From: Phycisphaerae bacterium
GTDB lineage: Bacteria; Planctomycetota; Phycisphaerae; Sedimentisphaerales; Anaerobacaceae
DNA: 59,453 nucleotides
Direction of reading: 5' to 3'
Assembly (NCBI GenBank): GCA_017993835.1
Contig: JAGOLX010000038.1
Span: forward strand, 1-59,453
Below are positions 29,301-59,453 of this stretch, in pieces. The number at the start of each line of letters is the position of its first letter. The first letter of the stretch is position 1. Under the pieces are notes generated by a model. It saw only the letters and a list, made by a program, of their open reading frames with translations. It ran no database searches and had not been told where the DNA came from. The position numbers were made by a program, and so were the translations under genes.

Positions 29301-32300
29301 AAGCCGTCTTGCCCGAAGTCCGAAGAACCTGCACGGTTCGCTGCGAGGTGGGGAACCGAACATGGGTCGAGTTCCAGGGCGTTTCGCTACAACCCGGCCG
29401 CAAGACCCGCGTCGAAGTCCGCATGGAGCCCAGGCGACCCTACGCAGGAACGAGTATCCCCGGTGACAAAGAGGAACAGACGCGGGCAAATGCTCCTGCC
29501 CGGGAGATTCTCCTGCCGGAGGTGAACCGCCGCAGGGTCATTCTCGATCTGGCCACAGGTAAATTACTTCCCTTGCCGTCGGTGGAGACAGAACCTCAGA
29601 AGATTCAGCAGGCACTGCGCACACGGGACAAAGGCGACGTCGTGTACGACGTCGATCTCCTTGATCGTACGCTTGTCCTTCTGCGCGACGCCACGTCCGA
29701 GCAAGGCTGGGCGGAGATTGGGAAGTCATTCACCACCGGCTATTTCGTCGCCAGAGACGTCCCGGAAACCTTGAATGTCACAACCAGGGAGGGCCGGCAA
29801 TATGAGATCACAGTCCTCTCGGCGAATCCGCATGACTGCACGCTGAGGTACTCACCGATTTCGGCCGACCGGGACGTTGGCGGAGACATCCTTGCCGGGC
29901 ATACAACAGCGGACGCGGCGACGGCGGCAAATGCCTCCGATTCTGGCCTTGTCGCCCAGCTTGCGAACGGTGTAACCATCACCCTGCTGGCGTACTCACG
30001 ACTGGGCGAGGCGGGTTTGGAATGGTGGACGCCGCGAGGCGAGCGAACGGCGATCCCCGGCGTCTACGAGGCCGACGTCGAGGGACATGGCACTGTCCTC
30101 GCGTTGCGGGCTGAGCCGATGCCGGAGGTGGGCGTCTTCGCGTCGCTCTGCCAGCCGCCCGATGTGAAGCAGGAACTGAAACCTGTCTGGCGCGTCGGTG
30201 ACGGCGACATCTGGCTCGTCCCCCTGGGGGAGGGACGCAGCTATGTCAACGTCGAGCTCATGGCTCAGGTCCGCGACCCGATCGTCGCGAAAGCAGTTGC
30301 CAGGGAGGGGTTCTCCTTGCCCGTCGGATTCCAAGCCGATCAGCAGGGCGCCGCGTGGATCAGCGATGTGAATCAAGTGGACTCCGACTCGACGGCGTTT
30401 TCGGCGCCCGCGGGCCCGGACGCACCAGGTGTTGTGGCTGCTCTGGATGTCTCGGGTCAGGTTCATTCGCTGCACCGTGTGCGAAGGGGTGACCTTGAGA
30501 CGATGTACGGTTTGGAGCTCTCAGGACGCAGGCGATACGAGACAGACATACCCCTGGACCGTTTCGCAGGCATTGTGGTGGAGGGGTACAGCGAACGGGC
30601 GGCCTTGATGAGACTGGGGAACCTCTCATTGCGTCCGGGGCAGCCGACCCAGGTCCGCGTCGAGGTGGAACCTGGGCTGCGAGGGCCCTGGTGGCATCGT
30701 AGCGAGTCCGACTCCAAACTCGACGATTTCTGTGGACGTCTCGTGGGGTACGCGGAGGCTCACGGCGGCTCGTATCCCGCGAATGAGTCTGCCCTGCGAG
30801 CCGTCTGTTCTGATGAGCTCTGGACCTGGTTGCAGGGGCACGTGGTCTATCTCGGCGCCGGCAAGTCCCCGACACGCGACGAAGGCGTGCCCATCGCCTA
30901 CGAAAGGACACTGCTGTCCTTCGGCTTCGGCACCCACATGCTCTACTCCGACGGCAACGTGGAATTCGTGGTTCCTTCGAAGCTCAAGGAACTTGGTATC
31001 CCGACGGGTGATGACCGCAGGAAACAGGGGGATCCCGACGCAAAGCAGAAGATGAACCAGCTTGCTCTGGCCATCAACAAGTTTGCAGACAACCACCAGG
31101 GAAATCTGCCTGTGGCGCTTTCGGCTCTCTCGTCGTATCTGGACGACCCTCAGACCCGCGCCTGGCTCGACGAGAATGTCACCTACGTCGGCAAAGGGAA
31201 CGTGAACCGTCGCGGGGCAGGTTCGATAGTTACCGCCTTTGAGAGGAACCCCCAGCCGACGGGCGAACGTTACGTCCTGTTCCTGGACTACCACATCGAG
31301 CTGGCCGGGCCGCAACGGCTCGCGGAATTGAACATCGAGAATGCCGGCCAGGTCAAGGGCGGCCCATTGGAGTTTCGAATCGCGGTGGACCTCGCGAGTC
31401 TGGACTCGGTCGCCATCGAGCGGTATCAACAGGCGCTCGTGAACGGCAACAACCCGCCGGAAGCGGATTTCGCGTGGTTCCCCACCCGGGCGGGCATGAC
31501 CGGTTTCCCCCAGGTGCCCGCCCAGGAGCGCGAGGGCACAACGTATGTACTGCTGTGGAACAAGCCGCCTCATGTGATTTTACCGAGCCAGGACTGGGGA
31601 CTGGACAAGGTCTACAGGACTACCGATGCCAATGGCAGATCCGCCATCGGGTTGACTCTGAACCAGAAGGGCGCCTCCCTCTTCCACGACATCACCGCAG
31701 TGAATGTGGGACGCCCTCTCGCGATCCTCGTTCACGGCGAGGTGGTTTCGATGCCGCATATCATGTCACCCCTTGATGGCAGGTCTGCTCTAATCACCGG
31801 CAGTCTCACCGAACGGGAAGTGGCCGACATGATGGCGACCCTGCGCCCGGTACGGGAAACCACCACCGACAGAGACGGTGCGACAGCAGGACCGCTCGGA
31901 CGATATACGCTATCGTTCGATGGCGTCGATGACTGCCTGATCGTTCCTGCCAGTCCGTCGCTGAGGTTGAAGCCGCCGTTCTTCATCGAGGTGTGGGCCA
32001 GGCCGGACTACTCCGCTCCTTCTTCGTCCTCGCCTGAGGACAGGACAGGGGCGCTTGCGATGTGCCTGATTCGACAGGGCAGGGAATTGCGTGGCGCATC
32101 AAGGCCTGAGGTGGATGAGACCGAGAAGGCCAACGCGGACGGATGGCCTCCGCTGCCTCGCGACAGAGTCACGCTTACCAACCTCCAGTCCGGCGGCTTC
32201 ATGGGTCTTGTGCGAGGGGGATTCTTCGCGGTCCAGGAGAATGGAAAAGCGATGCAGACGGGCATTCTCCGCAAGAACCAACTGGGCGTGGACCGTGCCG

Positions 32301-35300
32301 GCTGGCAGCACTTCTATGTATCGCTCGACGACGCATCAGAGTATGTGCCGTCTGACGGTCCGCTCGTGATCGGCGGAGACCTCGCGCCCCATATCCCCGC
32401 TTTCAAAGGGCAGATCGCGGAGATCCGTATCTGGAACGGCGTGCCGCGCGGCCGGGACACTCGATATGTGGGGACTACCTCCGTGACGGGCACCGAGCCC
32501 AACCTCGTCGCCTGCTGGACCTTCGAGGAGGGCACTGGCCAGATCGTCCGCGACATCAGCCGCAACGGAAACCACGCACGTCTGGGTAATTCCGGCGATG
32601 CAGACGATGCCGATCCAACTTGGATTGACTTGATGCAGACAGACCCGGTTGCGGCGAGGGCCAATGTGACGCTCACGCTGGGCGGCGATGACCCGCTTGG
32701 GCTCTTCTACAACGAGCATGGCCTGTGGTTCGAGCTGGACAATCACGGATCTGACTCCGTCGAGATCAATCCCCACCCCTTGGATCAGGACGAGAATCGC
32801 AGGGGCGAGTGGGGATATGTCGAGGTGCTCGCGGAGGACGGCACCTCAGTGACCTACAAGCGGCGAGAATCCCCTCCCAGCGTGCATAAGATCCCGCCCG
32901 GAAAGCGATACAAGGTCCAGGACTTCCTGAATGGCATGCCCTTGAGAGAGAGCGGTCCCGGTGTCTACAAGGTCCGTCTGACGTTGCGCGTGCGGAACGC
33001 GCGGACGGACGAGGTCGCGTTCGTCCCATCAAATTGGCACACGTTCCGCGTCACGCCGGCGGGTCGTTGGCCGGACCAGGTGCGAGGACCCTATGTGGAA
33101 CTCCGCGAGGCGGAGGCATTCGCAGCGACGTGCAACTACGGACACGGCTCCCACGATGAGGCGATCCAGCGGCTGCTCTCGCTCGCGGAGAAGTACACCG
33201 GCACGAAGTACGCGCTGGAGGCATACTTCACCGCGGCCGACCAGGCAAATACCGCGTCCTACGGACCCGGCGATCTGGCCGCCTATCAGGCCAAGCGAAG
33301 GGAGTATCACAGGGAGATCGTGAAACGCTGGCCGGACGTGGTCAATCATTACACGATCTACGCCCGGCTGCATACGTACTTCGGGATGCCTGAGTCCGAA
33401 TTCATCCAGTCACGCCGGGAGACGTACCGGTGGCTGTTGTCCATTACGGAAGAACAGAAGATCGCCAGCATCCGAGCTTACGGGGCCTTTACGGTCCGGC
33501 CCTCGGACGAGCCAACGGACGAGAACCTTCGTCAGAGTCTGCTGTCCTTGAATCAGTACATCAGCCAGACGAAGCAGATGCTCGAGACGAGCATTCCGGA
33601 CATCGCGGCAGACGCGTCGACGCCCCCAGCCGGGTCGGAGACGCTGACGAACACAGTCCGAGATGCGACTCCGAACACTCTCGCTGCGGCATTGGCCAGT
33701 GATCGCGTGAAAGGGCGAGCAGAGGGCGGTCTCGCCTGGCAGCGGACGGATCGGTATGTCCCGCCGGACCCCGATGGGTTCTTCCCGGATGATCCGGAAG
33801 GCGGCAAGAGACTCGATTCGCTCTTTCAGGCTGTGGACAAGGACGCACGCTCGGATGACGAGATCCTCTCGACCGTGCGCCAGGGTTTCCGACGCACGAC
33901 CCAGCATCGCACGCTCGTCCTCTCCTGGATCGGAAATCGGTACATCTGGAACAAGGACCCGCAGAATGCTCAGGCAATCGAGATCATGTACCACGCGGCG
34001 CCGCTCGAACAGCATTACGCAGTCTATTTCGGCCTGTCCGTCACTCGCCACAAGACGCCCAACATCCTGCGAACGCTGGCCGACATCTGCATGCGTGGCG
34101 AAGAGGTCGGACGGATCACCTGGGGCCTCGGCGACCAACGGGACGCAATGCTGGCGTATATCACGCCGCACTTGCAGGACAGCGACCCCGACAAGCGTCA
34201 GACCGCCGAGCTGCTCGTGAAGCACTTCAAAGGCGAACTGGACTTTGAACAATGGCAACGCGAGAAACGCGACGAGCAGGCGAGAGCCAGGCTGGGCGAT
34301 CAATTGCCTCAGATCAGGCAGACGCTTCTTGCCGGGGACAGCGAGGCACGCCGCCAGGCCTTTGTCACGCTGGCACGCAGCGGCGGGTCCGTCCTGGATG
34401 ATTCATTCCTGCCGGCCCTGCAGGCTGCGGCCTCCGACCCGAGCTCGGAGGTCCGCAACGACGTCGTTCGCACCGTCGGCGGGCGGTGGATCTGGTCGGC
34501 CCAGCAGCAGGACCCGAACGCCATCGCATTAACGCTGCGCCTCTCGTCGGATTCCGACCGCGAAGTGCGGTACAACGCGGTCTACTACGGCCTGTCTACC
34601 GTGCGGGACAAGAGCGATGCGGTCGTCCGACGGCTGGTGGAAATGGCCCTGGCCGAGCACGAGAACAATCTCTACGGCCGGATCGTTTGGGGTCTCAAGG
34701 GACCCATGCAGGCCACCCCTGCGTCGTTCACGCAGGCGCTCGCGGAACACCTCGACCGCGCCAAAGCGGATTTGCACTACGCTGCTTCCGTCTATCAGCT
34801 TCACCGCGACGTCCTGGGGACGGAGCCTGCCGACGACTGGGGTCTGGCGAGAGTCCGAGATCGCTATCCGGACGATTTGTTTGTCATCCCATTCTCCGCC
34901 CGGGAGCCATTCAAACCGGCGGACGCCGATGCGCTCTGGACCGAGTTCTCCGCGGCGCTGCCCGCAGGTGTCACGGCCGAGCGGCTCGCAGGCTGGTACG
35001 ATAGCAGAGCGACCGTCTGCCGCGCGAAGATCCGCGGAAAGGAGCGTGCCGAAGCGGTCCGAACCGCCATTGAGAACCACCCCCGCCTCCGCGCGGGCGA
35101 GATCACGCCGTTGACCGTGCCGATGCAGTTGTTCCTGGAGGAGAGAGGCAGTCCCGCAAGCACGCGGGCGCAAGTCGCGTCGCCTCAGCCGCGAGCGGAA
35201 TCCGGGACAGAAACGCCGACTGGGCCGGGCCCGATCCAGCAGAAGATCGACGCGGCCGCCCCAGGCGACACGATCCGGCTGGAAGCAGGCACCTACCACG

Positions 35301-36433
35301 AACGCCTGCGGATCGACAAACCGCTCACGCTCGAGGGCGCGGGCTGGGACAAGACGACCGTGACAATGGAGAGTCGAATGCCCGAATCGAAGGAACAGGC
35401 CGCAGACCTGGCGGCCCTGTCGGTCCTGTCCGTCGTCGGGACGCGGGACGTGACCATTCGCGGCATCAAGTTCACCGCGCCTGGCCGGCGCCTGCGAGGC
35501 GCGTCCCTCCCGACCGCCGTCGTCTCGCTCAACCGATGCGGAGCATGGCTCACGGACTGCGCCGTGATCGGCGGGCCGGGGGACGGAATCCACGTCCTCG
35601 ACGAGTCCAACGTGGCGATGCAGCGATGCCTGGTGGCTGCGGTCTGGGGGACCGGCGTCCGCGTCGGCTCCCCGAAAGACGTGTCCGAAGCGAGCATCGC
35701 AGACAGTGACATCCGCAACTGCCACTACGCAGGCATCCGCATCGCGAAGGGCAACCAGGCGACCGTCGAGCGGTGCCGGGTCTCGGGCGCCGCCTGGCAC
35801 GGGATTCGTTACGACGACGCGTCGCCGGTGATCGCAGGCAATCTGATTTTCGCCAGCGCCCGCTCCGGCATCTACGCCTCCGGCCGGACGCAGGCGACCA
35901 TCAAAGGAAACCTCTTCTGGGCCAACGAGATGTGCGGCATGTCCTGCTGGTTCCAGGACAACGACCGGATCGAAGGCAACACCTTCGTCCAGAACAAGCG
36001 CTCGGGACTCGAAATCATCGGCGCCTCGAAGCCGGACGTTCGCAACAACATCTTCTACGCCAGTCCCGCGGGCGTCTCTCTCGGCGACGTCGCCGATGAT
36101 TCGCCCTTCGCCAAGTCCGACGGCGCGGCGCCGCTCGAAGGCAACATCTTCTGGACCAACGAGCAGGCGATTCGGCGCGGAGGCGGTGCCGTCACCGAAC
36201 AGGCCGCGGTGCTCGATGAGAAGGCGGGCGTCTCCTTCGACCCGCGATTCGTAGCGCCGGACGCCAGGGACTTCTCGCTGAGGGCGGACTCCCCCGCCCG
36301 GAAGAAGGGCATCGGCGCCGCCGACCTGATCCCATTCGCCAGTCCCTGGCCGATCCAGCCGGAGGAATCGGCCATCATCCCGCGAGGGGACACCCGCGAT
36401 TCCCGCCAGTGGCGCGATCCGCTGGTCCAGTAG
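26360..36433 (+). CDS. Giant BlaR1-like M56 membrane metallopeptidase with multidomain extracytoplasmic sensor (3357 aa)
   Basis: ATG 26360 follows GGAGG. Residues 1-375 are an M56 domain with four membrane segments (about 17-37, 48-63, 148-167, 355-374), the zinc motif HELAH (246-250, in HELAHVKRGD) and the distal Glu region REQAVDETVL. After the last helix about 2980 residues lie outside. In order: a module opening NGVTVELLGVCEHP (about 397), repeated at about 885 and, diverged, about 1200; companion blocks with VMLDLATGQF and VILDLATGKL (about 742 and 1047); a SecD P1-head-like domain (about 1725-1830, GRSAIGLTLNQKGASLF...VGRPLAILVHG); a LamG-like domain (about 1850-2077, SFDGVDDCLIV...CWTFEEGTG); a beta domain; TPR-like helices (about 2270-2375); two related HEAT-like blocks (about 2500-2640 and 2665-2790); a NosD-type right-handed beta-helix (about 2956-3307). 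BlaR1 itself has about 600 residues. It probably senses an envelope or carbohydrate signal and inactivates the upstream BlaI. Confidence 0.9.
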   Translation: MNTIVETINAAGRAFVGFSLPMLIQSSVLIVILLGVDAVLRRKVRAVFRYWIWLLVLAKLVLPPSLGSPMSVGTWFGDKLEVPTMLPFEPEPPSAEPSPLVSAILSAPDPMFRQPPLSPPQAAGPTAPPPTVEASAPVQTPMVSLSWQGLTLLAWAAVAIALTLLLVQRAFFVRGLVGQAQEANRALLDAMEDCRGRLGLRRRIGLRLSPNASSPAVCGLLHPTVLIPQSLAPRLHSHDLHAVLLHELAHVKRGDLWVNLAQTLLQIAYFYNPLLWLANAMIRRTREQAVDETVLVAMGETAKQYPEILVNIAKLAFRRRPALSLRLIGVVESKSALTGRIKHILSRPIPKTAKLGIVGLLVIGLVAAILLPMAADERSASPPDVDQEQPSIFTRTLPNGVTVELLGVCEHPGEGKSWWRPDGDGLLAEIPYRTGRTTLAPSPEDVAYKFAVRLHRVPRQGLGSIMVIPSLGTLAGNIPSATSGRFIDDLYWAEVALPRGQQECSICCVVATGAWETTARMPVEALNGQGVTIRGVTFSSPADDPETDATISVSCNIGDWLSRVVAVTAEGRVIGIPSVQCNRPPQTRIRQAIVQFPGLTLAEIEEFQFQRRPWRWVEFENVSLQPGHKTDVRINAASEDVGDAVPEGMVGTWRLENPEGDDQQMAVFPDGRVLVLYPDGHEDRTHYCNGFLTLGNHGCVRVQTILRANGTILQYLTGEDGDLFARRWRRVAAQPTAGAISREIVLPDVDHEAVMLDLATGQFVPTPRVEPPERLLETIKELGKGDLVLDGQSLILVRGATSKQAQEGPEGLVKIIRIGSPLPQIVTVTAADGTQYRIDVRSVDDKACTFTYSPISTAGGASGGAPGEPATPDTKPSDSGLVARLANGVTIELLGVCEHPNESNQWWRADGLPLQKAPCYNSGLSRRPSREGTVYAFAIRMDSVPEGMQTVVAIPSSHALMSSDSSQDEYGRLIEDIWWVEAVLPEVRRTCTVRCEVGNRTWVEFQGVSLQPGRKTRVEVRMEPRRPYAGTSIPGDKEEQTRANAPAREILLPEVNRRRVILDLATGKLLPLPSVETEPQKIQQALRTRDKGDVVYDVDLLDRTLVLLRDATSEQGWAEIGKSFTTGYFVARDVPETLNVTTREGRQYEITVLSANPHDCTLRYSPISADRDVGGDILAGHTTADAATAANASDSGLVAQLANGVTITLLAYSRLGEAGLEWWTPRGERTAIPGVYEADVEGHGTVLALRAEPMPEVGVFASLCQPPDVKQELKPVWRVGDGDIWLVPLGEGRSYVNVELMAQVRDPIVAKAVAREGFSLPVGFQADQQGAAWISDVNQVDSDSTAFSAPAGPDAPGVVAALDVSGQVHSLHRVRRGDLETMYGLELSGRRRYETDIPLDRFAGIVVEGYSERAALMRLGNLSLRPGQPTQVRVEVEPGLRGPWWHRSESDSKLDDFCGRLVGYAEAHGGSYPANESALRAVCSDELWTWLQGHVVYLGAGKSPTRDEGVPIAYERTLLSFGFGTHMLYSDGNVEFVVPSKLKELGIPTGDDRRKQGDPDAKQKMNQLALAINKFADNHQGNLPVALSALSSYLDDPQTRAWLDENVTYVGKGNVNRRGAGSIVTAFERNPQPTGERYVLFLDYHIELAGPQRLAELNIENAGQVKGGPLEFRIAVDLASLDSVAIERYQQALVNGNNPPEADFAWFPTRAGMTGFPQVPAQEREGTTYVLLWNKPPHVILPSQDWGLDKVYRTTDANGRSAIGLTLNQKGASLFHDITAVNVGRPLAILVHGEVVSMPHIMSPLDGRSALITGSLTEREVADMMATLRPVRETTTDRDGATAGPLGRYTLSFDGVDDCLIVPASPSLRLKPPFFIEVWARPDYSAPSSSSPEDRTGALAMCLIRQGRELRGASRPEVDETEKANADGWPPLPRDRVTLTNLQSGGFMGLVRGGFFAVQENGKAMQTGILRKNQLGVDRAGWQHFYVSLDDASEYVPSDGPLVIGGDLAPHIPAFKGQIAEIRIWNGVPRGRDTRYVGTTSVTGTEPNLVACWTFEEGTGQIVRDISRNGNHARLGNSGDADDADPTWIDLMQTDPVAARANVTLTLGGDDPLGLFYNEHGLWFELDNHGSDSVEINPHPLDQDENRRGEWGYVEVLAEDGTSVTYKRRESPPSVHKIPPGKRYKVQDFLNGMPLRESGPGVYKVRLTLRVRNARTDEVAFVPSNWHTFRVTPAGRWPDQVRGPYVELREAEAFAATCNYGHGSHDEAIQRLLSLAEKYTGTKYALEAYFTAADQANTASYGPGDLAAYQAKRREYHREIVKRWPDVVNHYTIYARLHTYFGMPESEFIQSRRETYRWLLSITEEQKIASIRAYGAFTVRPSDEPTDENLRQSLLSLNQYISQTKQMLETSIPDIAADASTPPAGSETLTNTVRDATPNTLAAALASDRVKGRAEGGLAWQRTDRYVPPDPDGFFPDDPEGGKRLDSLFQAVDKDARSDDEILSTVRQGFRRTTQHRTLVLSWIGNRYIWNKDPQNAQAIEIMYHAAPLEQHYAVYFGLSVTRHKTPNILRTLADICMRGEEVGRITWGLGDQRDAMLAYITPHLQDSDPDKRQTAELLVKHFKGELDFEQWQREKRDEQARARLGDQLPQIRQTLLAGDSEARRQAFVTLARSGGSVLDDSFLPALQAAASDPSSEVRNDVVRTVGGRWIWSAQQQDPNAIALTLRLSSDSDREVRYNAVYYGLSTVRDKSDAVVRRLVEMALAEHENNLYGRIVWGLKGPMQATPASFTQALAEHLDRAKADLHYAASVYQLHRDVLGTEPADDWGLARVRDRYPDDLFVIPFSAREPFKPADADALWTEFSAALPAGVTAERLAGWYDSRATVCRAKIRGKERAEAVRTAIENHPRLRAGEITPLTVPMQLFLEERGSPASTRAQVASPQPRAESGTETPTGPGPIQQKIDAAAPGDTIRLEAGTYHERLRIDKPLTLEGAGWDKTTVTMESRMPESKEQAADLAALSVLSVVGTRDVTIRGIKFTAPGRRLRGASLPTAVVSLNRCGAWLTDCAVIGGPGDGIHVLDESNVAMQRCLVAAVWGTGVRVGSPKDVSEASIADSDIRNCHYAGIRIAKGNQATVERCRVSGAAWHGIRYDDASPVIAGNLIFASARSGIYASGRTQATIKGNLFWANEMCGMSCWFQDNDRIEGNTFVQNKRSGLEIIGASKPDVRNNIFYASPAGVSLGDVADDSPFAKSDGAAPLEGNIFWTNEQAIRRGGGAVTEQAAVLDEKAGVSFDPRFVAPDARDFSLRADSPARKKGIGAADLIPFASPWPIQPEESAIIPRGDTRDSRQWRDPLVQ

Positions 36434-42797: not shown

Positions 42798-43043
42798 ATG
42801 TTGGCCGTGCCCGGCATCAGAGAATCCGAGGCAGAATTTCCGCAACGCGAGCGGCCAAGTCGGGAGAGCCAGGGAGGAAATCGCGTCTGTCGGGTCCACA
42901 TCGTAGAATCCAGCTACGTCGAGGGCACTCATCCAGGAATTCAGATCCGGGCTCGGGTCCTCCGCACACGGAAGGTCGCTCAGCCCTGCGGCTCTGTGGA
43001 GGCTGCACGATCAGGCATTTATGGATTAGGAGATAGAATATGA
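42798..43043 (+). CDS. Small hypothetical protein coupled to the astacin gene
   Basis: The product has 81 residues and is unrecognised. Support: consensus-like promoter, AAGGAGG six bases before ATG 42798, and a TGA stop (43041-43043) overlapping the next gene's ATG (43040) as ATGA, the signature of translational coupling. It contains a single Cys pair region (NRVCRVHIVESSYVEGTHPG, then VAQPCGSV) and no signal peptide. It might be a leader cistron rather than a functional protein. Confidence 0.5.
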   Translation: MLAVPGIRESEAEFPQRERPSRESQGGNRVCRVHIVESSYVEGTHPGIQIRARVLRTRKVAQPCGSVEAARSGIYGLGDRI

Positions 43044-44920
43044 CCGGTCATAGACTCGTCACCTCATCGACTCGGAGTCCGCTCGTATCCGAAGGAGTTC
43101 TGTTGGTTGTTCTCTGTGCCTTTGTCGCCTCGCTCCCCAGGAGGGTCGTCTTTGCCGCAGAGGAGGCCTTCGACATCTTGCCCTGGACGGACGGGATCGT
43201 GTACTACAAGTTCGACGATGGTTCGGTCGGTCCCGTGGCCGTGCACGCGGACGACCAGGCGAAGATCGAGAACGAGATGGCGACATGGGAACAGGCACTG
43301 ACCCTTGCCGACCCGAGCGGCTCGGGAACGAAACGATACATCGACTTCCGCCCGTGCGGCAACACTCCCCGGACAAACTATCTTCTCGTTCGATACAATC
43401 ACCTGAATGCAGACGGGACGGAGGCCGAGTGCAACAACATGCCGGACCCGGTCGGCATGGAAGCCCGAGATCCCGATGGTCATCCTGAGAACGAGAACGA
43501 CGATGGGGTCACGGAACTGCACTTTCGACGGGGGACGTGTCCCGCCGAGGCGGACGCGACCCATTTGTCGCTGCCCGTCCCCGCGAGCGCAAGGACGAAC
43601 CAGCCTGACCGCATCATTCTCCACGAGTTGGGCCACGCCCTGGGTTTCTGGCATGAGTTCAACCGCGAAGACGCCGATCGGTGGTTGATCGAGGTTCCCG
43701 ATGAAGATGGGGATGTCTTCGCCGATTCATTCGGGACGAAGGCGGGTCTCATGCCGGCGTTGGGCAATTACGACTATGATTCGATCATGCATTACGGCTC
43801 GGGGAAGATCGGAGGCGCCCCTGACTATAACGACTACCTCGATAACACGTTCGACAAGGGCATCCAAAAGGCCGTGCTTTCCGAACGAGACAAATCCCGC
43901 CTTCTGCAGTACCTGGCGCACGAGCGATATCCCAACTGGGGTTTTTTCAAGTCCCTCAGCTCTCAGTCACGGTACGATCCGGATGAGCTGCCCGACCCCT
44001 ATCTGGTGGAGGGCGTCGAAGCGATGGGGACACCGGCAATCGCCTACCAGAGCCCCGGCAATTACACCCTGTTCGCCCGCGGTTCCGACAACTGCATCTA
44101 TTGTCAGGAGTATTGGACCGCGACGAACAATCTTCCGGTGGTGGACCGTTGGCGTTCCATTGGATCGCGTTTCAGTTCCGATCCGGCCGCGGTCTCGCGG
44201 GCTGCCGACAGATACGATGTCGTCGCTGTCAACGATCAAGGAGACGTTCAGCGCATCAAATACATCGAGGGAGTCTGGTACGAACCGCTGACCATCCGGG
44301 GCGGGCACCCCACGGGCGGGCTCAAGCAGGACGACAATGGGAACTACATAGGCCCAGCCATTGCCTCGCGAGGCGCCAACCTGCTGGAGGTATTCGTCGT
44401 CCGCAGCGACGGGCGTCTGGCGGTGACCACATGGAGCAACAACACCTGGGGGCAGTGGCGTACGCTCGACGATGGCTATGACATAACCGCGCAACCGGCC
44501 GCGGTCGCTCTCTCCGATGCGGAGATCCAGCTCGCCATCAACGAGAGCCATGTGTTCCTGTACGAACCCCTTCTGACATTTGCTCCCCTGGTGCCGTCGT
44601 TTTCCGTGGGCATCGCCAAGGCCGCCACAGCGAACGATGCCCCGCCTGCGATAGCCACGCGGGGCGGCCAGACCAGTCGTTATCGCGTGCTCATCGCGAA
44701 CTCCTACGGCCGCATATCTCACCGGACTGCCACCGGGGACTGGATGGAAATTGGCGGGATCCTCAAGCCCGGCACGGGACCGGCCGCTGTGGCAACCGGA
44801 GATTACTCGTTCAGACTCCTCATGAACGGCGAAGATGCCACCGGGTGCGATCTCTCCTACTCCTCAGGGCCCGGCCGCGACAGTCGCCCAGGCGGCCTCT
44901 GGATAAGAGATTGCGATTGA
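43040..44920 (+). CDS. Astacin-like (M12A) secreted metalloprotease with C-terminal lectin-like propeller
   Basis: The product has 626 residues and a TAGGAG ribosome site. The signal segment is about residues 17-40 (EGVLLVVLCAFVASLP...VVFAA). The catalytic domain (about 45-300) carries the complete astacin zinc signature HELGHALGFWHE (about 195-206) and the Met-turn SIMHYGS (about 251-257). The remaining about 300 residues form repeats such as GTPAIAYQSPGNYTLFARGSDNCIY, SDPAAVSRAADRYDVVAVNDQGDVQ, GPAIASRGANLLEVFVVRSDGRL and PPAIATRGGQTSRYRVLIANSYGRI, a pattern of PLL-like lectin or sialidase-type beta-propellers. It is expected outside the cell, degrading proteins while bound to glycans. Confidence 0.9.
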   Translation: MTGHRLVTSSTRSPLVSEGVLLVVLCAFVASLPRRVVFAAEEAFDILPWTDGIVYYKFDDGSVGPVAVHADDQAKIENEMATWEQALTLADPSGSGTKRYIDFRPCGNTPRTNYLLVRYNHLNADGTEAECNNMPDPVGMEARDPDGHPENENDDGVTELHFRRGTCPAEADATHLSLPVPASARTNQPDRIILHELGHALGFWHEFNREDADRWLIEVPDEDGDVFADSFGTKAGLMPALGNYDYDSIMHYGSGKIGGAPDYNDYLDNTFDKGIQKAVLSERDKSRLLQYLAHERYPNWGFFKSLSSQSRYDPDELPDPYLVEGVEAMGTPAIAYQSPGNYTLFARGSDNCIYCQEYWTATNNLPVVDRWRSIGSRFSSDPAAVSRAADRYDVVAVNDQGDVQRIKYIEGVWYEPLTIRGGHPTGGLKQDDNGNYIGPAIASRGANLLEVFVVRSDGRLAVTTWSNNTWGQWRTLDDGYDITAQPAAVALSDAEIQLAINESHVFLYEPLLTFAPLVPSFSVGIAKAATANDAPPAIATRGGQTSRYRVLIANSYGRISHRTATGDWMEIGGILKPGTGPAAVATGDYSFRLLMNGEDATGCDLSYSSGPGRDSRPGGLWIRDCD

Positions 44921-49736: not shown

Positions 49737-50223
49737 GGATTTATTGACCCTTGTCGGCATGCCAGGAACAGCGTCTGGCTGCTCTGCACGATATGACGCC
49801 TCCCGCCGGCCTTTGGGCCGGGAAATGGCGGTTATCAACGCGAGGGTCCGAAAATACGTACTTCTACGGATGGAATTCCCTTACCCCAGTGGGTACAATA
49901 GAATCATGGCCGGCGGCCGGGGAGCGGGGTTTCCCTGCTTCCGTACTGCCGTTGGCTGTTTCCACGCCGAGGCGCTGTCCATGCGAGGCTCTCGACAACG
50001 GAGGTGAAGAAGATGCACGCCGCACCATGTCATTGCGAGCGCAGCGCGGCAATCTCGTCCCAGGGGTTGCTTGGGGCCGGGCTATATTCGCCACGGAACG
50101 ACTCGAAACCGCAGATACACGCTGATGAACGCGGTCAGTCAGGATCGACTCGCGCAGAGGCGCGGGGACGCAGGGGTAGGGTGGGCTGTGCCCACCGTTC
50201 ACCAAACGAATCGGAGGCAGAAC
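49737..50223. other. Intergenic region upstream of the GLUG gene
   Basis: No gene seen. It contains TGTCATTGCGAGCGCAGCG (about 50029), a motif common in bacterial extragenic repeats, and a GTGGGC palindrome at 50175-50196 that ends 28 bases before the GLUG start codon. Confidence 0.5.
50175..50196. repeat. GGTAGGGTGGGC palindromic repeat
   Basis: GGTAGGGTGGGC-TGTGCCCACC; same family as 41403-41430, with a shortened tail (GTTC in place of GTCTTC). Confidence 0.8.
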
Positions 50224-52710
50224 ATGGTCACTCCAAGTAGATCCCAGACGTATGGCGCAACAGTGTTCTTTTTCCTCTTGGTTATCGTCTCGACCGCCAC
50301 GGCCAAATACAGCGGCGGGAGGGGGGAGCCGAACGACCCCTACCAGATCGCCACGGCTGCCGACCTGATCGCCCTCGGCGAGAACCCCAACGACTACGAC
50401 AAGCATTTCATCCTAAGCGCCGATATCGACCTGGACCCCAACCTGCCCGGCGGCAAGGTCTTCGACAGGGCCGTCATCGCGCCGGATACTGACCCAGCCA
50501 ATTACTGGTCGGTATTCGATGGAAGCTCGTTCACCGGCGTCTTCGACGGCGCCGGGCACACAGTCTCACACCTGACGATCACGGGTGGGAGCTATCTCGG
50601 CCTATTTGGCCAAGTTGGCCAATGGGATGCGCCTGCTGGCGAGATTAGAAACCTTGGGGTCGCAGATGTGAACATATTCAGTTCTGGCAGCTATGTTGGC
50701 GGGCTAGTGGGATCAAATGGCCGATTGTATAGCGATGGTGGTACTATGACACACTGCTATAGTACCGGCTCGGTCAGTGGAGATAAGTCTGTTGGGGGCC
50801 TCGTGGGAAGCAATAGGGGGGAGGTTGCCAACTGCTACAGCACAGGTACGGTCCGCGGAGGCAGCTCTATCGGCGGGCTGTTGGGTGAAAACGGTGGGGA
50901 TGTTATCAACTGCTACAGCAAAAGTACAGTTGTCGGAGATTATGATTCTGTTGGTGGATTGGTCGGCACAAACGGCGGACCCTACCTTGCTCTGTTTCAC
51001 GTTCTTCCCTGCGGTTCTATCATCCAGTGCTATAGCACAGGGGCAGTTACCGGCACGGAGGATGTCGGAGGCCTCGTAGGCGCTAATCCGGGGAATGTTC
51101 TTAATTGCTACAGCACAAGTGCAGTCAGTGCAGATAGTGCTGTCGGCGGGTTGGTCGGCGTGAATTGGGTAATGCCCTATCATGATACTAATGCCACAAT
51201 CGATGGCCGTATTGCCAACTGCTACAGCACTGGTGTGGTCATTGGCAATTCTGATGTCGGTGGTCTTGTGGGAGTTGGAGCTCTATTTTACAGCAACGAA
51301 GACCATGTGATCCGTTCGTTCTGGGACACACAGACCTCGGGCCAGACAACCAGCGACGGCGGTACAGGTTTACCTACTGCCGAGATGCAGACGGCCAGCA
51401 CGTTCCTCGACGCCGGCTGGGACTTAGTGGGCGAGACTGAAAACGGCCCCAATGACGTCTGGAAGATCGTCGAAGGCCAAGTATACCCACTCCTGTCCTG
51501 GCAGAAATACGGCGGCGGAACGGGCGAGCCTAACGATCCCTATCTCATCTACACGGCCGAGCATCTGAACGCCTTCGGGGCCGAGCCGAACGACTACTAC
51601 AAGCACTTCAAGCTCATGGCGGACATCGACCTGTCTGGACATATGTATGACAGGGCTGTAATCCCGGGATTTGGCGGCGTCTTCGACGGAAACGACCACA
51701 TAATCTCGAATCTGACGATCGAAGGTGGAAGTGGCCTGGGTCTATTCGGGCGACTCAAAGGCTACGGCGGCGCTGGCGAGGTCACAAACCTGCGACTGGA
51801 CGCCGTAAAGGTCAGTGGCATGTCGTATGTCGGTGGCCTCGTGGGCTACAACTCGCATGGCAGCATCGTCACAAGCCACAGCAGCGGCTCGGTCACCGGC
51901 GATTTCTTTGTCGGCGGCCTCGTGGGACACAACGAGGGTACTCTCGCCCAGTGCAACAGCACCGGCGTGGTTGACGGCAACGACGATGTCGGCGGCCTCG
52001 TGGGTTGGAACTCGGGCAGCATCGGCACAAGCCACAGCAGCGGCTCGGTCATAGGGAATGACTCTGTCGGTGGCCTTGCGGGCACAAGCAGTGGGGAGGT
52101 TACCGACTGCTTTAGCACGAGTACGGTTAGTGGAGGTGACCGCGTTGGTGGGTTGATTGGTAGGGGCTACATGTTCGCGCGTTATGGACTTCATCGCGGC
52201 ATTGTGGACCGCTGCTACAGTACCGGTACGGTCGAAGGTTCTTGGGGTGTTGGTGGGCTCGTGGGAGGGAATGGAGGGGAGGTTACCTGCTGCTACAGTA
52301 CGAGTACCGTCAATGGAGACGGCGATGTGGGTGGCCTGGTCGGTATGAATTGGGGAAGCTACACCTTCGGCGTTCCACACTTTTTCACCGGACTTATCGC
52401 CCAATGCTACAGCACCGGCTCGGTCAGCGGAAACGACGATGTCGGCGGTCTTGTGGGATCGAATACGGACGTGTATTATGGTGATGAAGGCGCCGTGAGC
52501 TACAGTTTCTGGGACATCGAAACATCGGGGCAGGCAGCCAGTGCCGCCGGCACAGGCAAGACCACAGCCGAGATGCAGACGGCCGCGACCTTCCTCGACG
52601 CCGGCTGGGACTTCGTGGGCGAGACGGCCAACGGGACCGAGGACATCTGGTGGATCAACGAAGGGAAGGACTATCCGAGATTGTGGTGGGAGCTGATTCC
52701 TGAGAATTGA
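50224..52710 (+). CDS. Secreted GLUG-repeat protein, adhesin-like
   Basis: The product has 828 residues. ATG 50224 has a GGAGG site; the open frame extends upstream through repeat DNA and is not used. The signal peptide is residues 1-27 (ATVFFFLLVIVSTATA). The protein consists of two halves, each opening with a (G/E)PNDPYxIxTAxxLxAxGxxPNDYxKHF block (residues about 33 and about 434) and each closing with a FWDxxTSGQxxSxxGTG...AEMQTAxTFLDAGWDxVGE block. Between them are many GLUG repeats of the form VGGLVGxNxGxVxNCYSTGxVxG, which build a beta-helix-like rod. GLUG proteins act as surface adhesins in some bacteria. The second half appears to be a duplication of the first. Confidence 0.9.
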   Translation: MVTPSRSQTYGATVFFFLLVIVSTATAKYSGGRGEPNDPYQIATAADLIALGENPNDYDKHFILSADIDLDPNLPGGKVFDRAVIAPDTDPANYWSVFDGSSFTGVFDGAGHTVSHLTITGGSYLGLFGQVGQWDAPAGEIRNLGVADVNIFSSGSYVGGLVGSNGRLYSDGGTMTHCYSTGSVSGDKSVGGLVGSNRGEVANCYSTGTVRGGSSIGGLLGENGGDVINCYSKSTVVGDYDSVGGLVGTNGGPYLALFHVLPCGSIIQCYSTGAVTGTEDVGGLVGANPGNVLNCYSTSAVSADSAVGGLVGVNWVMPYHDTNATIDGRIANCYSTGVVIGNSDVGGLVGVGALFYSNEDHVIRSFWDTQTSGQTTSDGGTGLPTAEMQTASTFLDAGWDLVGETENGPNDVWKIVEGQVYPLLSWQKYGGGTGEPNDPYLIYTAEHLNAFGAEPNDYYKHFKLMADIDLSGHMYDRAVIPGFGGVFDGNDHIISNLTIEGGSGLGLFGRLKGYGGAGEVTNLRLDAVKVSGMSYVGGLVGYNSHGSIVTSHSSGSVTGDFFVGGLVGHNEGTLAQCNSTGVVDGNDDVGGLVGWNSGSIGTSHSSGSVIGNDSVGGLAGTSSGEVTDCFSTSTVSGGDRVGGLIGRGYMFARYGLHRGIVDRCYSTGTVEGSWGVGGLVGGNGGEVTCCYSTSTVNGDGDVGGLVGMNWGSYTFGVPHFFTGLIAQCYSTGSVSGNDDVGGLVGSNTDVYYGDEGAVSYSFWDIETSGQAASAAGTGKTTAEMQTAATFLDAGWDFVGETANGTEDIWWINEGKDYPRLWWELIPEN

Positions 52711-54203: not shown

Positions 54204-54249
54204 GTACCCAGTACCCCCCAGTACCCCCCAGTACCCCCCAGTACCCCAG
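54204..54249. repeat. 10-bp tandem repeat array (GTACCCCCCA)
   Basis: Three exact GTACCCCCCA units (54211-54240) flanked by the shorter GTACCCA and the variant GTACCCCAGC. It is a short tandem repeat between the second RAYT gene and the GH89 block, not a CRISPR (no spacers). Confidence 0.85.
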
Positions 54250-54401
54250 CGTCGCCTTCCCTTCACCATGTTCCTGGTCCAAGGCGAAAAATCCCAGGGG
54301 CCTGGGGACAGAACCCCCAGGCTCCCGAGCACCACTATGCTATCGAATCGCTCGTGCCATCTCCGAAGGCCCGTGTTGCGCTTCACATGTTAATGCGCCT
54401 T
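54247..54401 (+). repeat. 155-bp direct repeat flanking the GH89 gene, left copy
   Basis: It begins CAGCGTCGCCTTCC, contains GTTCCTGGTCCAAGGCGAA and ATCGCTCGTGCCATCT, and ends TTCACATGTTAATGCGCCTT. The same sequence with scattered differences and equal length occurs at 57221-57375. Its end abuts the GH89 stop codon (54400-54402). Confidence 0.85.
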
Positions 54402-57003
54402 ACTTCTCAAAGGCCATTACTTCCACCAGGTGTCGGCCGGCGTTCGCGGAGTTGTGTGTTTGCGTCACCCGGATGTATCGCACGGGTCGAGGCTTGAAAC
54501 GGCATGCGTATCCTTCCCTTGTGGAGAGTTCCCTGTTGTTCGTCATGTCGGCAACTACATCCCATACTTTTCCGTCAGCGGAGGTTTCCACGGTAAAACC
54601 ATAGTAGCGTTCGTCCCCGAAGAAGCCCACAACGACGACTTGGCCGACCGTGGCAGGTTCAAGAAGATCGACCTGCCACCACGCGTCGCCGGGATGTTGG
54701 AGTACATCGGTAGCCCAATAGCTATTCGGACTGTCGCTCTGTCCGTCGTTAGCCAAGTGTGCTGGATAGCCCGGCAGCACATGCGAGCAGGTCGCTGGCT
54801 TGCCCGTGGTCAGGCTGGGCGCATTGGGTCTGAGAGCCTCCTGGTATTTCTCCCACAGTCGGCGGGCCACTGCCACGCTATCGCCGCTTGGCTGCGTGGG
54901 ATACGTTTCCTGTCCGTCCGACCATTTGACCATCCACTGTCGCAGCTTCCGGCCGAATGCTTCCTCATCAAAGGGCTCTCCTCCCGCAAGCGACTTACCG
55001 ACTTCGCCCAAATACCATTCCCATCGTTTCAGATAGTAGCCGGTCAACATGCCGGACCAGAGCTTGCGCGCATAGTCATCGATCTGCGGACCCTGTCCCC
55101 ACAGCGTCAGTACACGTCGCGCATTCCACTGAAGGACATGTCGTTCCTCATCGCTGATCCCCCACCGTTTTGCATCTTCCAGCCAGCACCCCAGAAGGAA
55201 CTCCTTGCGTGTGGCCAGGAGTTCATCCACGTCGCGAATCAACTCCAGAAACCGCTCGGCACTCTCCCTGAATCCCGGCACGTTCCTGGCCTTGTAAGCG
55301 ACGACAATATCGCTGTACAATTGGGCCGCATGATTGACCAATACTTGGCGGGCCACGTTGACCAAATCAAAACGGTACGTATCAACCTGCCCCAGTGAAT
55401 CCGATGCCTGAGCCAGATCGTGCCAGGCTTGGGCCAAACGCACGTTGCTGTACGACGCACCCGCATCTGCGTCGTTGAGAGTCGGCGCCCGTTCAATGAT
55501 AGAATCGCCATGATTCTGGCTATTGAATACTGTGTTCTGGAGGACGTGCCAGGCGCGTCGGACATCAGGATGAGGTTGGCCATAGCGGTAGTGTGCGTAC
55601 TCCTCGATCCACTTGTCCGGATCGAGAGGTACATCCTCCCAGGCCATCTGGAACATCAGATCATAGGTCACGGGGTTGCAGTCGAGCGCTTCGTTGACAA
55701 ATCCAAGCCCAATCAGGTGGCCGCCGTTTGGATCGTGACGAGCGGAGATCAGGCCCCGGTTATTCTCATTCAGCGCCCCTCCCAGGCGGACGGCGCCGCC
55801 AAAGGTCTGCACGTTGCACCACAGCCAGGGCTTGCCCAAAAAGGCATCGGTCTGACTCCACATGGGTGTCGATTCGCAGAACAGATCCAGCAAGAGCATA
55901 CGTTCGTCCGGGATGGCATTGAGAAAGGCCTGGAGGCGGGGCTGTGTCCAAAAACTCCGTTGGTTCATGAACGCCCATCCCTGCAATACCCAGACGGCCT
56001 GTTCATCGCTCTGAGCCATACCGCGATAGATGGCCTGGCTCAGAGCGCTCAGATACGGGAGATCACCTTTCGGGGGCACCATTTCGATGAAGGTATCAGC
56101 CGCATAGAGGTGGTCCGTGCCGAAGCGTTTGAATTGCTCCTCGTGCCATAGGCGTGCAATCTGTTCAAATCGGGCATCAAGGGGATCCAGAAGTGACGTC
56201 TCCCATTCAACCCAGTGCACAGTGTGCACCGTCGCGTCTGGATACTTCTGCGTGATTGCAGCCGGCACATGACCGGTGAACCCCTGAAGCACGGGCGTCA
56301 TGTCCAGTTCCCGCTGCCGCGCAAGGATTCTCTTCTGGAGTTCTTCGTGTCGGTCGATCCAGTGTTGGCTCAGGGGGCCGCCCCACCCATCCAGGCAACC
56401 CATCCACTGAAAAGGCAGATAAGGAGGGCCGGCAAGATACTCGGTTATTTCTCCATCACTCATGCCCAAGCGACGACACACGGCCTGCCATACTGCCTCT
56501 TGGCCGGTGATAGCCAGGGGCGTATTCACGCCGTTCAGGGCCATCCAGTCGATGAGCCGTTCCCACTGGCTGAAATCCCACCACGGCAATGAATAGCCGA
56601 AGCAACAATAGTTCAAAAAGTAGCGGCGCCGTGCCCAAGCCGTGCGCCGGATCTTCTGTTCCACCAGTGGCAAGGGATCGGGCAGAGCAAGCTGGCTGCC
56701 ACACCAGGAAACGTGACAATGACAGTAGTTCTTGAGATACCAGTTCAATCCCATGGCCAGAGACACCGCATTGTTGCCGCGGATGGTCACCTTCCCTGGG
56801 GAGGTCTCAACCTCGAAGACGTCCCTCCCGTCATCTGGCGGGATCACCGCGAACCCAAACGCGTCCCCGTGCTGATATGTCGGCAACAGCCGATTCAGCA
56901 GAGCTTGGGCCGCTTTGACAGATGGGTCTACCGTACTGCCCAATGTGGATGTAACATGGATTAGCAGGAGAAGGAGAAGCGTCTTATGCAGTCGCATCGT
57001 CAT
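54400..57003 (-). CDS. GH89 alpha-N-acetylglucosaminidase with C-terminal discoidin domain
   Basis: It removes terminal alpha-linked GlcNAc from glycans. The product has 867 residues with a signal peptide (residues 1-22, LLLLLLIHVTSTLG). The NAGLU N-terminal domain (about 27-110, including AVSLAMGLNWYLKNYCHCH) precedes the barrel: RRRYFLNYCCFGYSLPWWDFSQWERLIDWMALNGVNTPLA. By comparison with human NAGLU, the acid/base Glu lies in DTFIEMVPPKGDLPYL (near residue 307) and the nucleophile in GLGFVNEALDCNPV (near residue 437). The helical C-terminal NAGLU domain follows, and from about 725 an F5/8 type C domain (ATCSHVLPGYPAHLANDGQS...YWQVDL-like WWQVDLLEPATVGQVVV). The gene is an isolated unit bounded on both sides by 155-bp direct repeats. 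Base use is somewhat less GC-rich than the neighbours. Confidence 0.92.
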   Translation of the reverse strand: MTMRLHKTLLLLLLIHVTSTLGSTVDPSVKAAQALLNRLLPTYQHGDAFGFAVIPPDDGRDVFEVETSPGKVTIRGNNAVSLAMGLNWYLKNYCHCHVSWCGSQLALPDPLPLVEQKIRRTAWARRRYFLNYCCFGYSLPWWDFSQWERLIDWMALNGVNTPLAITGQEAVWQAVCRRLGMSDGEITEYLAGPPYLPFQWMGCLDGWGGPLSQHWIDRHEELQKRILARQRELDMTPVLQGFTGHVPAAITQKYPDATVHTVHWVEWETSLLDPLDARFEQIARLWHEEQFKRFGTDHLYAADTFIEMVPPKGDLPYLSALSQAIYRGMAQSDEQAVWVLQGWAFMNQRSFWTQPRLQAFLNAIPDERMLLLDLFCESTPMWSQTDAFLGKPWLWCNVQTFGGAVRLGGALNENNRGLISARHDPNGGHLIGLGFVNEALDCNPVTYDLMFQMAWEDVPLDPDKWIEEYAHYRYGQPHPDVRRAWHVLQNTVFNSQNHGDSIIERAPTLNDADAGASYSNVRLAQAWHDLAQASDSLGQVDTYRFDLVNVARQVLVNHAAQLYSDIVVAYKARNVPGFRESAERFLELIRDVDELLATRKEFLLGCWLEDAKRWGISDEERHVLQWNARRVLTLWGQGPQIDDYARKLWSGMLTGYYLKRWEWYLGEVGKSLAGGEPFDEEAFGRKLRQWMVKWSDGQETYPTQPSGDSVAVARRLWEKYQEALRPNAPSLTTGKPATCSHVLPGYPAHLANDGQSDSPNSYWATDVLQHPGDAWWQVDLLEPATVGQVVVVGFFGDERYYGFTVETSADGKVWDVVADMTNNRELSTREGYACRFKPRPVRYIRVTQTHNSANAGRHLVEVMAFEK

Positions 57004-57220
57004 TGGTACTCCAGAGGCTATTCGTTTCTTGTCTGCTCACGGCCTTCCTTTCTTGATTCATCGTCGACAAGCATGTTAACCATACCTCGCACGGATGACC
57101 ATCCAAATTGATAAGCAGTCTACCCTCCGAATGTCCCTCGCTGGGGAAACTGAGGACAACTACTTCTCTTTGGACGTCGCACTGTCGCGGCCCGGGGACG
57201 TGGGCGACATGGTCGGCACC

Positions 57221-57375
57221 CAGCGGCGCCTTCCGTTCACCACGTTCCTGGTCCAAGGCGAAGAATCCCCAGGGCCTGGCGACGGCATCCCCAGTCTCAT
57301 CAAGCTCGCTGTGCTATCGGATCGCTCGTGCCATCTCTGAACGCCCATGTTGCGGTTCACATGTTAATGCACCTT
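57221..57375 (+). repeat. 155-bp direct repeat flanking the GH89 gene, right copy
   Basis: Same orientation and length as 54247-54401; it begins CAGCGGCGCCTTCC and ends TTCACATGTTAATGCACCTT. The stretch 57004-57220 between the GH89 start and this repeat holds no gene. Confidence 0.85.
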
Positions 57376-57411: not shown

Positions 57412-57483
57412 CATGCGTTAGGAAGCTGAAAATCCTGACGGGCAGAAGGCATATGAGAACTAACGGACAAAAGGAGGTTTACC

Positions 57484-59025
57484 ATGTGTAGATCATCATT
57501 CCTCATCGTTCTGTGTGTTCTGGCCGTGGGCCATTCATCTCTCCTGTACGCCGACAGCCAGGAGGAGGTGACGGCGGTCGTAGGCGAAGAGTTCACCGTC
57601 GCGCTGGCGTCGAATCCCAGCACGGGCTACAGCTGGTCCCTGGCCGGGTCCCTGCCGAGCTGGCTGGTGCAGGTCGACAAAACCTACATCGCCGACAACC
57701 CCGGGATGATCGGCGGGGGCGGCACGGAGTACTGGACGTTCCGAGCCACAGGTGCCGGCAGCACGACGTTGACCTTTCAGTACATGCAACCCTGGGTCGG
57801 CACGCCTATCGAAGAGCACATTGTCCTAGTCACCGCCCAAACCCCGACCGATACAGAGAAGATCGACGTGATCGTAGGCAAAGAGTTTACGGTCGCACTG
57901 GCGTCGAATCCCAGCACGGGTTATGGCTGGTCCCTGGCCGGGTCCCTGCCGAGTTGGCTGGTGCAGGTCGACAAGACCTACGTCGCCGACAACCCCGGGG
58001 TGATCGGCGGGGGCGGCACGGAGTGCTGGACGTTCCGAGCCACAGGTCCCGGCAGCACGACGTTGACCTTTCAGTACATGCAACCCTGGGTCGGCACGCC
58101 TATCGAAGAGCACGTTGTCCTAGTCACCGCCCAAACCCCGACCGATACAGAGAAGATCGACGTGATCGTAGGCGAAGAGTTTACGGTCGCACTGGCGTCG
58201 AATCCCAGCACGGGCTACAACTGGTCCCTGGCCGCGTCCCTGCCGAGTTGGCTGGTGCAAGTCGACAAAACCTACGTCGCCGACAACCCCGGGATGATCG
58301 GCGGGGGCGGCACGGAGTACTGGACGTTCCGAGCCACAGGTGCCGGCAGCACGACTCTGACCTTCCAGTATGAGCGTCCATGGGAAGGCACGCCCATTCA
58401 AATACACATTTGCCGCGTCGCCGCCAGTCCGCTGACGAACGCGCAGAACATCTTCGTGGCGGCAGGCGAGGACTTCACAGTCGCACTGGCGTCGAATCCC
58501 AGCACGGGGTATTCCTGGGCTCTGGCCCAATCCCTGCCGAGCTGGCTGGTGCAAGTCGATAAGACCCACGTCACCACCAACCCAGGGGTTACTGGCGGCG
58601 GCGGCACAGAGTATTGGAAGTTCCGGGCCGACACAGCCGGCAGCACGACTCTGACCTTCCAGTACAAGCGTCCATGGGAAGGCACGCCCGTCAAGGTACG
58701 CGTCTGTGAGGTTACCGCCATATCGCCGACCGACGCGGAGAACCTCTTCGTGGTGGCAGGCGAAGATTTCACAGTGGCACTTGCGTCAAATCCCAGCACG
58801 GGGTATTCCTGGGCCTTGGCCCAGTCCCTGCCGAGCTGGCTCGTGCAAGTCGATAAGACCTACGTCGCTACCAACCCGGGGGTGATCGGCGGCGGCGGTA
58901 CAGAACACTGGACATTCTGGGCCACGGCGGCCGGAAACGCGGCTCTGATATTCCAGTATGAGCGTCCCTCGGGAGGTACACCCCTCAAGGTACACGTCTG
59001 CAAGCTCACCGCCGCAGAGCAATAG
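57484..59025 (+). CDS. Secreted protein of five tandem chagasin-type (I42) cysteine protease inhibitor domains
   Basis: The product has 513 residues; ATG 57484 follows AAGGAGG. Signal peptide 1-23 (FLIVLCVLAVGHSSLLYA). The rest is five repeats of about 98 residues (starting near 27, 122, 220, 318 and 416). Each has the chagasin loop motifs: NPSTGY(S/G/N)W for loop L2, GGGGTE(Y/C/H)W for L4, and a PW-type L6. L6 is QPWVG in domains 1-2, RPWEG in 3-4 and RPSGG in 5. In chagasin these three loops block the active site of papain-like proteases. Domains 1-3 are nearly identical at DNA level (period 294 bases), indicating recent duplication. Likely an extracellular multi-headed inhibitor. Confidence 0.88.
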   Translation: MCRSSFLIVLCVLAVGHSSLLYADSQEEVTAVVGEEFTVALASNPSTGYSWSLAGSLPSWLVQVDKTYIADNPGMIGGGGTEYWTFRATGAGSTTLTFQYMQPWVGTPIEEHIVLVTAQTPTDTEKIDVIVGKEFTVALASNPSTGYGWSLAGSLPSWLVQVDKTYVADNPGVIGGGGTECWTFRATGPGSTTLTFQYMQPWVGTPIEEHVVLVTAQTPTDTEKIDVIVGEEFTVALASNPSTGYNWSLAASLPSWLVQVDKTYVADNPGMIGGGGTEYWTFRATGAGSTTLTFQYERPWEGTPIQIHICRVAASPLTNAQNIFVAAGEDFTVALASNPSTGYSWALAQSLPSWLVQVDKTHVTTNPGVTGGGGTEYWKFRADTAGSTTLTFQYKRPWEGTPVKVRVCEVTAISPTDAENLFVVAGEDFTVALASNPSTGYSWALAQSLPSWLVQVDKTYVATNPGVIGGGGTEHWTFWATAAGNAALIFQYERPSGGTPLKVHVCKLTAAEQ

Positions 59026-59453
59026 CCGAACCTGGACGCTCTCGAGACCGGGGCTCCGGATACAGGCGGATACAGGGAACAGCTGGCGTTTTTGAGTCTC
59101 CCTATATCGCATACTGATCGCCCACGATCCATCCCACACCCTACACGCGATGGCCGTCCGCATCCCTCACGGCCTTCTTCACCACGGAGGACGCCGGGCA
59201 CACGAGGCCTTCGCCCTCATGCGGCTTCTTCCATCCTACACCGTCAATTCCTACCGCCATATTGCCCGATCCGGGCGAAATTGTCAAGAAGAAGCAACCG
59301 ACAGGCGGATGGGATTCGTCATGCTGAGCTGTCACGGATCGGGTTAAGACCAGCCACCGGGGATCGGGTCAAAACCAGCCAGTGTTCTTTGCCATTTCGT
59401 ACCCGTTCTGTCCTCGCCCTGCAAGGGAATTTGTGGTGACCAATCCATTCGAT
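59026..59453. other. Terminal stretch without a supported gene
   Basis: Short open frames lack ribosome sites or family resemblance. At about 59335-59383 is a two-unit repeat, GATCGGGTTAAGACCAGCCA and GATCGGGTCAAAACCAGCCA, 24 bases apart, resembling transposon-end or extragenic repeat text. Confidence 0.5.

Follow-up and report, generated by a model that had tools for sequence, protein, structure and literature searches.

The window analyzed here is an entire contig of 59,453 bases, taken from the 6.37-Mb genome of a planctomycete host, probably of class Phycisphaerae, that is available as a draft of 115 contigs with an estimated completeness of 99%. Close to its end, at positions 57484-59025 of the forward strand, a single frame with an ATG start encodes a protein of 513 amino acids, which the frame and its Pfam match identify as a five-domain inhibitor of the I42 (chagasin) type. 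A Shine-Dalgarno sequence, AAAGGAGG (57470-57477, forward strand), is legible six bases before the ATG. The hydrophobic N-terminus, MCRSSFLIVLCVLAVGHSSLLYA|DS, reads by eye as a Sec signal peptide that likely comprises residues 1-23 (57484-57552, forward strand) with probable cleavage after LYA, in agreement with the sequence-only reading, which had placed a signal peptide in front of five domains. A Pfam search of the 513-residue protein found no other recognised domain, anchor or partner domain.

The divergent neighbour is an alpha-N-acetylglucosaminidase gene (NAGLU glycosidase; 54400-57003, reverse strand), beyond which lies a Y1 transposase; no operon partner of the inhibitor gene is visible among the neighbouring genes. 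A direct repeat of about 157 bases flanks the glycosidase gene on both sides (57219-57375 and 54245-54401, 85% identical) and has weaker copies on the host contigs C27, C34 and C40; possibly it represents a dispersed non-coding element tied to Y1 transposases. The array itself is located inside the contig, which ends 428 bases past the gene. The last 125 bases (59329-59453) recur with 98-100% identity at the ends of five other host contigs; hence, the assembly breaks at a repeat other than the I42 array. Elsewhere in the window, a frame of 3357 amino acids (26360-36433) shows an odd combination of an M56 (BlaR1-type) peptidase domain, a SecDF P1-head segment, HEAT-like repeats and a right-handed beta-helix. 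A protein of 626 amino acids (43040-44920) matches the astacin (M12A) metallopeptidases, and an 879-residue GLUG-repeat protein (50071-52710) is devoid of I42.

Five chagasin-type domains and their binding loops

The five domains occupy positions 57556-57849, 57850-58143, 58144-58437, 58438-58731 and 58732-59022, all on the forward strand. They are in-register copies whose starts are 294 nt, i.e. exactly 98 amino acids, apart in each of the four intervals. The Pfam profile PF09394 (Inhibitor_I42; MEROPS family I42, chagasin) matches the protein in five stretches with 394.2 bits (E 1.5e-120; cut-off 27.2), and in a profile search of the genome the single domains score between 74.5 and 93.1 bits each against the same cut-off. 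A chance origin of the five-domain match is excluded, and the proposal of five tandem chagasin/I42 domains holds. A Pfam match to the falstatin family I71 was set aside (22.3 bits at a cut-off of 22.1, over only 36 residues), as were the remaining weak Pfam matches, which lie below their cut-offs. The sole NCBIfam match below 0.001, an O-acetyl-ADP-ribose deacetylase, was rejected with 31 bits against a cut-off of 271; weaker NCBIfam matches lie far under their own cut-offs and were likewise rejected.

The closest solved sequences are those of the Pseudomonas aeruginosa ICP (2wgn, E 1.2e-11) and, next to it, chagasin (2h7w, E 2.3e-10). An AlphaFold2 model of domain 3, based on an alignment of 57 family domains, reaches a pLDDT of 92.8 and superimposes on chagasin (2oul/2nnr) with Z 12.0 and an rmsd of 2.3-2.4 over 94 residues; unrelated Ig-like structures score Z of about 8 and below. 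The assumption of an I42 Ig-like fold, as opposed to some other fold, is thus upheld. In a tandem model of domains 2 and 3, both domains are predicted confidently (pLDDT 89) and their orientation to each other is not settled (pTM 0.56), which is what beads on a string would give. In Ig-like tandems the preceding domain lies near the BC/FG loop end of the next one; the inner heads might therefore be partly hindered.

Chagasin binds C1 peptidases in a 1:1 ratio through the loops L2, L4 and L6 (PMC2607524). In the array, L2 reads NPSTGY identically in all five domains, so that the NPTTG motif appears as NPSTG; among relatives, serine and threonine are equally frequent at that site (20/52 each). 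L4 reads IGGGG in four domains and TGGGG in domain 4, so that the GxGG motif is present as GGGG in every copy. The claim that L2 and L4 are conserved throughout is therefore correct for L2 to the letter and for L4 nearly so. L6 is QPW in domains 1 and 2 (57787-57795 and 58081-58089), RPW in domains 3 and 4 (58375-58383 and 58669-58677) and RPS in domain 5 (58963-58971); the alignment of the domains confirms this succession, which had been noticed before. The proline is kept in 5/5, domains 3 and 4 match the chagasin motif RPW/F, and no head departs from RPW by more than one residue. Over the whole domain, the five copies agree at 50 of 95 positions: 8/9 in L2, 8/10 in L4, 4/8 in L6 and 0/9 in the last strand. 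The changes are concentrated in the last strand, the linker and L6. A pattern scan of the 57-domain alignment was dropped because the domains are too diverse.

In 52 other domains of the family, the L6 arginine is found 47 times and the tryptophan 44 times; glutamine replaces the arginine in three of them and serine replaces the tryptophan in none, which makes QPW and RPS uncommon variants of this loop. In chagasin, R91 bonds to enzyme residue 18, and the mutation W93A lowers the affinity for cathepsin L 100-fold while cruzipain inhibition stays in the same range, i.e. L6 residues matter in a target-dependent way (PMC2607524). From this contact and this effect it follows that changes in L6 can shift specificity, or may merely weaken the head. 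That the L6 variation broadens the target range is a possible reading of the sequences.

Growth of the array and its occurrence among genomes

In domain register, DNA identity falls with distance: it amounts to 90% between domains 1 and 2, 86% between 2 and 3, 83% between 1 and 3, and 69-80% for all other pairs, with 80% between 4 and 5 and 69% between 1 and 5. (A value of 95% from the repeat search belongs to a register shifted by 22 nt and not to the domain register.) At sites where domains 1 and 3 differ, domain 2 equals domain 3 at the first 17 (nt 1-48 of the domain) and domain 1 at all 29 informative sites from nt 213 onwards; the five sites in between are mixed, and the middle of the domain (77-133 nt) alternates between domain 1-like and domain 3-like sites. 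One breakpoint explains 49 of the 51 informative sites, and none of 100,000 permutations does as well. Domain 2 is a mosaic that resembles domain 3 in its 5' part and domain 1 in its 3' part. This is the product expected if domain 3, then the second domain, recombined with domain 1 of another copy, and it shows how such arrays grow. The array clearly grew by in-frame recombination within the gene, probably an unequal crossover in the conserved central part of the domain, although gene conversion would leave much the same pattern in domain 2. The earlier suggestion of recent expansion or gene conversion, drawn from the high identity of domains 1-3, is thereby narrowed to in-frame recombination. 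Pairwise dN/dS among the copies lies between 0.25 and 0.57, i.e. below 1 for every pair, which indicates purifying selection; diversifying selection on the domain as a whole is not indicated for any pair.

The statement that I42 inhibitors are usually single-domain proteins is only partly right. It agrees with public loci, where the best 80 of 265 relatives confirmed in a domain-alignment search contain 84 I42 frames, 80 with one domain and 4 with two. It is too strong in view of the archaeal phylum of Methanothrix, where I42 occurs in 181 of 392 genomes and two-domain frames are frequent, and of the two-domain proteins in the genus of the host. In a sample of the host phylum, I42 is present in 33 out of 392 genomes, and more than two matches per frame are seen only in the five-domain protein; in a sample of the order, 20 out of 161 genomes have a match, and two congeners possess two-domain proteins. 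Elsewhere the number of domains reaches three at most among the matches listed, namely in a 392-residue frame from the Methanothrix phylum (G670:C2:76329-77267). The search for further multidomain I42 proteins thus leaves five as the highest domain number found across the genomes searched. A scan with the protein alone found no close relative of the whole 513-residue protein in public genomes, and open-access papers yielded no report on multidomain chagasin proteins of bacteria. A DNA search of plasmids with the gene gave no match, protein searches of plasmids and phages gave one distant partial match each, and viral contigs gave no confirmed match; none of these searches points to a mobile element or a virus as carrier of the gene. 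The domain is of a known kind, the array is longer than any other found in the genomes searched, and the protein does not constitute a new class of system.

The closest relative belongs to a congener, the MAG Prado173 (L058, L077), with 56% identity over residues 5-219. Like the protein described here, it begins with a signal-like N-terminal segment followed by two I42 domains; unlike it, it continues with an FGE-sulfatase domain (PF03781), of which no remnant was traced downstream of the five-domain gene in the window. Another congener has two I42 domains after a 225-residue segment without Pfam match. The second I42 of the host (contig C50) forms the C-terminus of a GLUG-repeat protein, and the same holds for a GLUG protein of the congener G464. 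Several large GLUG or PD40 propeller proteins of the host family carry I42 as their C-terminal module (L057:1965-4736, L060:152-2905, L063:4615-6030, L067:4901-6370), where it perhaps shields surface proteins from proteases; a purely structural role at this place is also possible and counts against an inhibitor reading. Within this family, I42 is evidently a module joined to various extracellular domains.

Chagasin of Trypanosoma cruzi (I42.001; PDB 2nqd, 2oul) shares the fold (Z 12 over 94 residues) and the loops NP(T/S)TG, GxGG and RPW with the five-domain protein, but is a single domain of 110 residues without repeats or the L6 variants QPW and RPS. The Pseudomonas aeruginosa ICP (PDB 2wgn), a bacterial I42 inhibitor and the best sequence match in the PDB, is likewise a single domain. 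The archaeal proteins resemble ours in carrying their domains in tandem in one frame, but they belong to a different phylum and have, among the matches listed, no more than three domains. In function, the comparison extends to the kininogens and plant multicystatins (cystatin family I25), which block papain-like proteases with several heads of differing strength, although their fold and family are unrelated to I42; the Ki values of kininogen segments range from over 100 nM to 0.005 nM (PMC7863939). If its heads bind proteases, the five-domain protein would be a bacterial counterpart of these inhibitors on the chagasin fold.

Possible targets and rival explanations

The host draft assembly contains no match to Peptidase_C1 (PF00112), while the same search was positive in 3 control genomes; in an assembly estimated to be 99% complete, a C1 gene could still have been missed. 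Of eight congeners, four do have the peptidase, and in one of these four I42 occurs as well. In the phylum sample of 392 genomes, 9 of the 33 I42 genomes possess C1 (odds ratio 1.47, p 0.37), and in the order sample of 161 genomes 8 of 20 do (p 0.45). The association is not significant in either direction in either sample, and these co-occurrence statistics neither support nor reject a role against foreign proteases. For the host, the lack of a Peptidase_C1 match makes foreign targets the simplest reading, and neighbours or predators as their source fit both this lack and the putative signal peptide. We regard action on foreign papain-like proteases as the likeliest role and give a secreted, multi-headed inhibitor of such proteases, with its presumed export, inhibition, stoichiometry, foreign targets and differing affinities, a probability of about two in three. 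According to this model, the protein would leave the cell by the Sec pathway as five chagasin domains strung together flexibly; each of them would offer its L2 loop (NPSTGY), flanked by L4 (GGGG) and L6 (xPW), to the catalytic cysteine, so that one polypeptide might bind several protease molecules, most likely those of other organisms. The array would have expanded from fewer domains by in-frame unequal crossing-over in the conserved L2-L4 region. Domains 1 and 2 (glutamine for R91) and domain 5 (serine for W93) would probably not bind with the same affinity as the RPW domains 3 and 4, a situation comparable to that of the three segments of kininogen. If the heads bind proteases, the array would also be a natural series of five versions of one scaffold, distinguished mainly by L6 and the strands next to it, in which the contribution of L6 to specificity would lend itself to a direct test. 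It is doubtful, though conceivable, that the array is remodelled by in-frame unequal crossing-over into heads of different L6 specificity with which a C1-less bacterium blocks a changing set of foreign papain-like proteases.

In a variant of the inhibitor reading, repetition could serve avidity or dosage instead of breadth: the copies would simply raise the yield of inhibitor from each transcript and each export event, and the differences in L6 would be near-neutral drift or partial decay, with domain 5 as the weakest head. To this we assign somewhat less than an even chance. It would explain why L2 is identical and L4 near-identical in all copies, why the tryptophan is retained in four of five heads, and why changes gather not only in L6 but also in the linker and the last strand; the RPS of domain 5, the freshness of the mosaic domain 2 and the dN/dS values, which reveal no diversifying selection on the whole domain, point the same way. 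Glutamine and serine nevertheless depart from an L6 motif that most relatives preserve (R 47/52, W 44/52), and the glutamine is kept in two copies, although domain 2 has it from domain 1. An assembly artefact that hides a domain number other than five appears quite improbable. The draft state in 115 contigs and the 90% identity of domains 1 and 2 would permit it, and the mosaic could be a short-read chimera; yet the contig break is caused by another repeat at a distance from the array, each unit has private differences at many sites, contrary to a simple collapse of 294-nt units, and the alternating sites in the middle of domain 2 are not a single clean switch.

Tandem Ig-like repeats are common in surface proteins, and the domains could be cell-surface spacers or binding modules for adhesion or structure that have lost inhibition, as C-terminal I42 modules in GLUG and PD40 proteins, the I42 domains beside an FGE-sulfatase domain and the undetected Peptidase_C1 of the host might suggest. 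We consider this unlikely, given that L2 and L4, two of the three protease-binding loops and of no need to a spacer, belong to the best-conserved segments of the array, and that neither an anchor nor a partner domain is recognised in the protein. Largely disfavoured, and the least probable, is a role in controlling a cysteine peptidase of the cell itself, in the way chagasin controls cruzipain: the Peptidase_C1 search that succeeded in the control genomes was negative in the host, and the neighbours of the gene are a NAGLU glycosidase and a Y1 transposase. In its favour, C1 and I42 genes adjoin each other in some genomes of the phylum, e.g. at G328:C207 (8355-8969 and 9257-9508) and G252:C203 (1514-2137 and 2604-2858); this juxtaposition in distant genomes implies that endogenous and non-endogenous arrangements both exist in the phylum.
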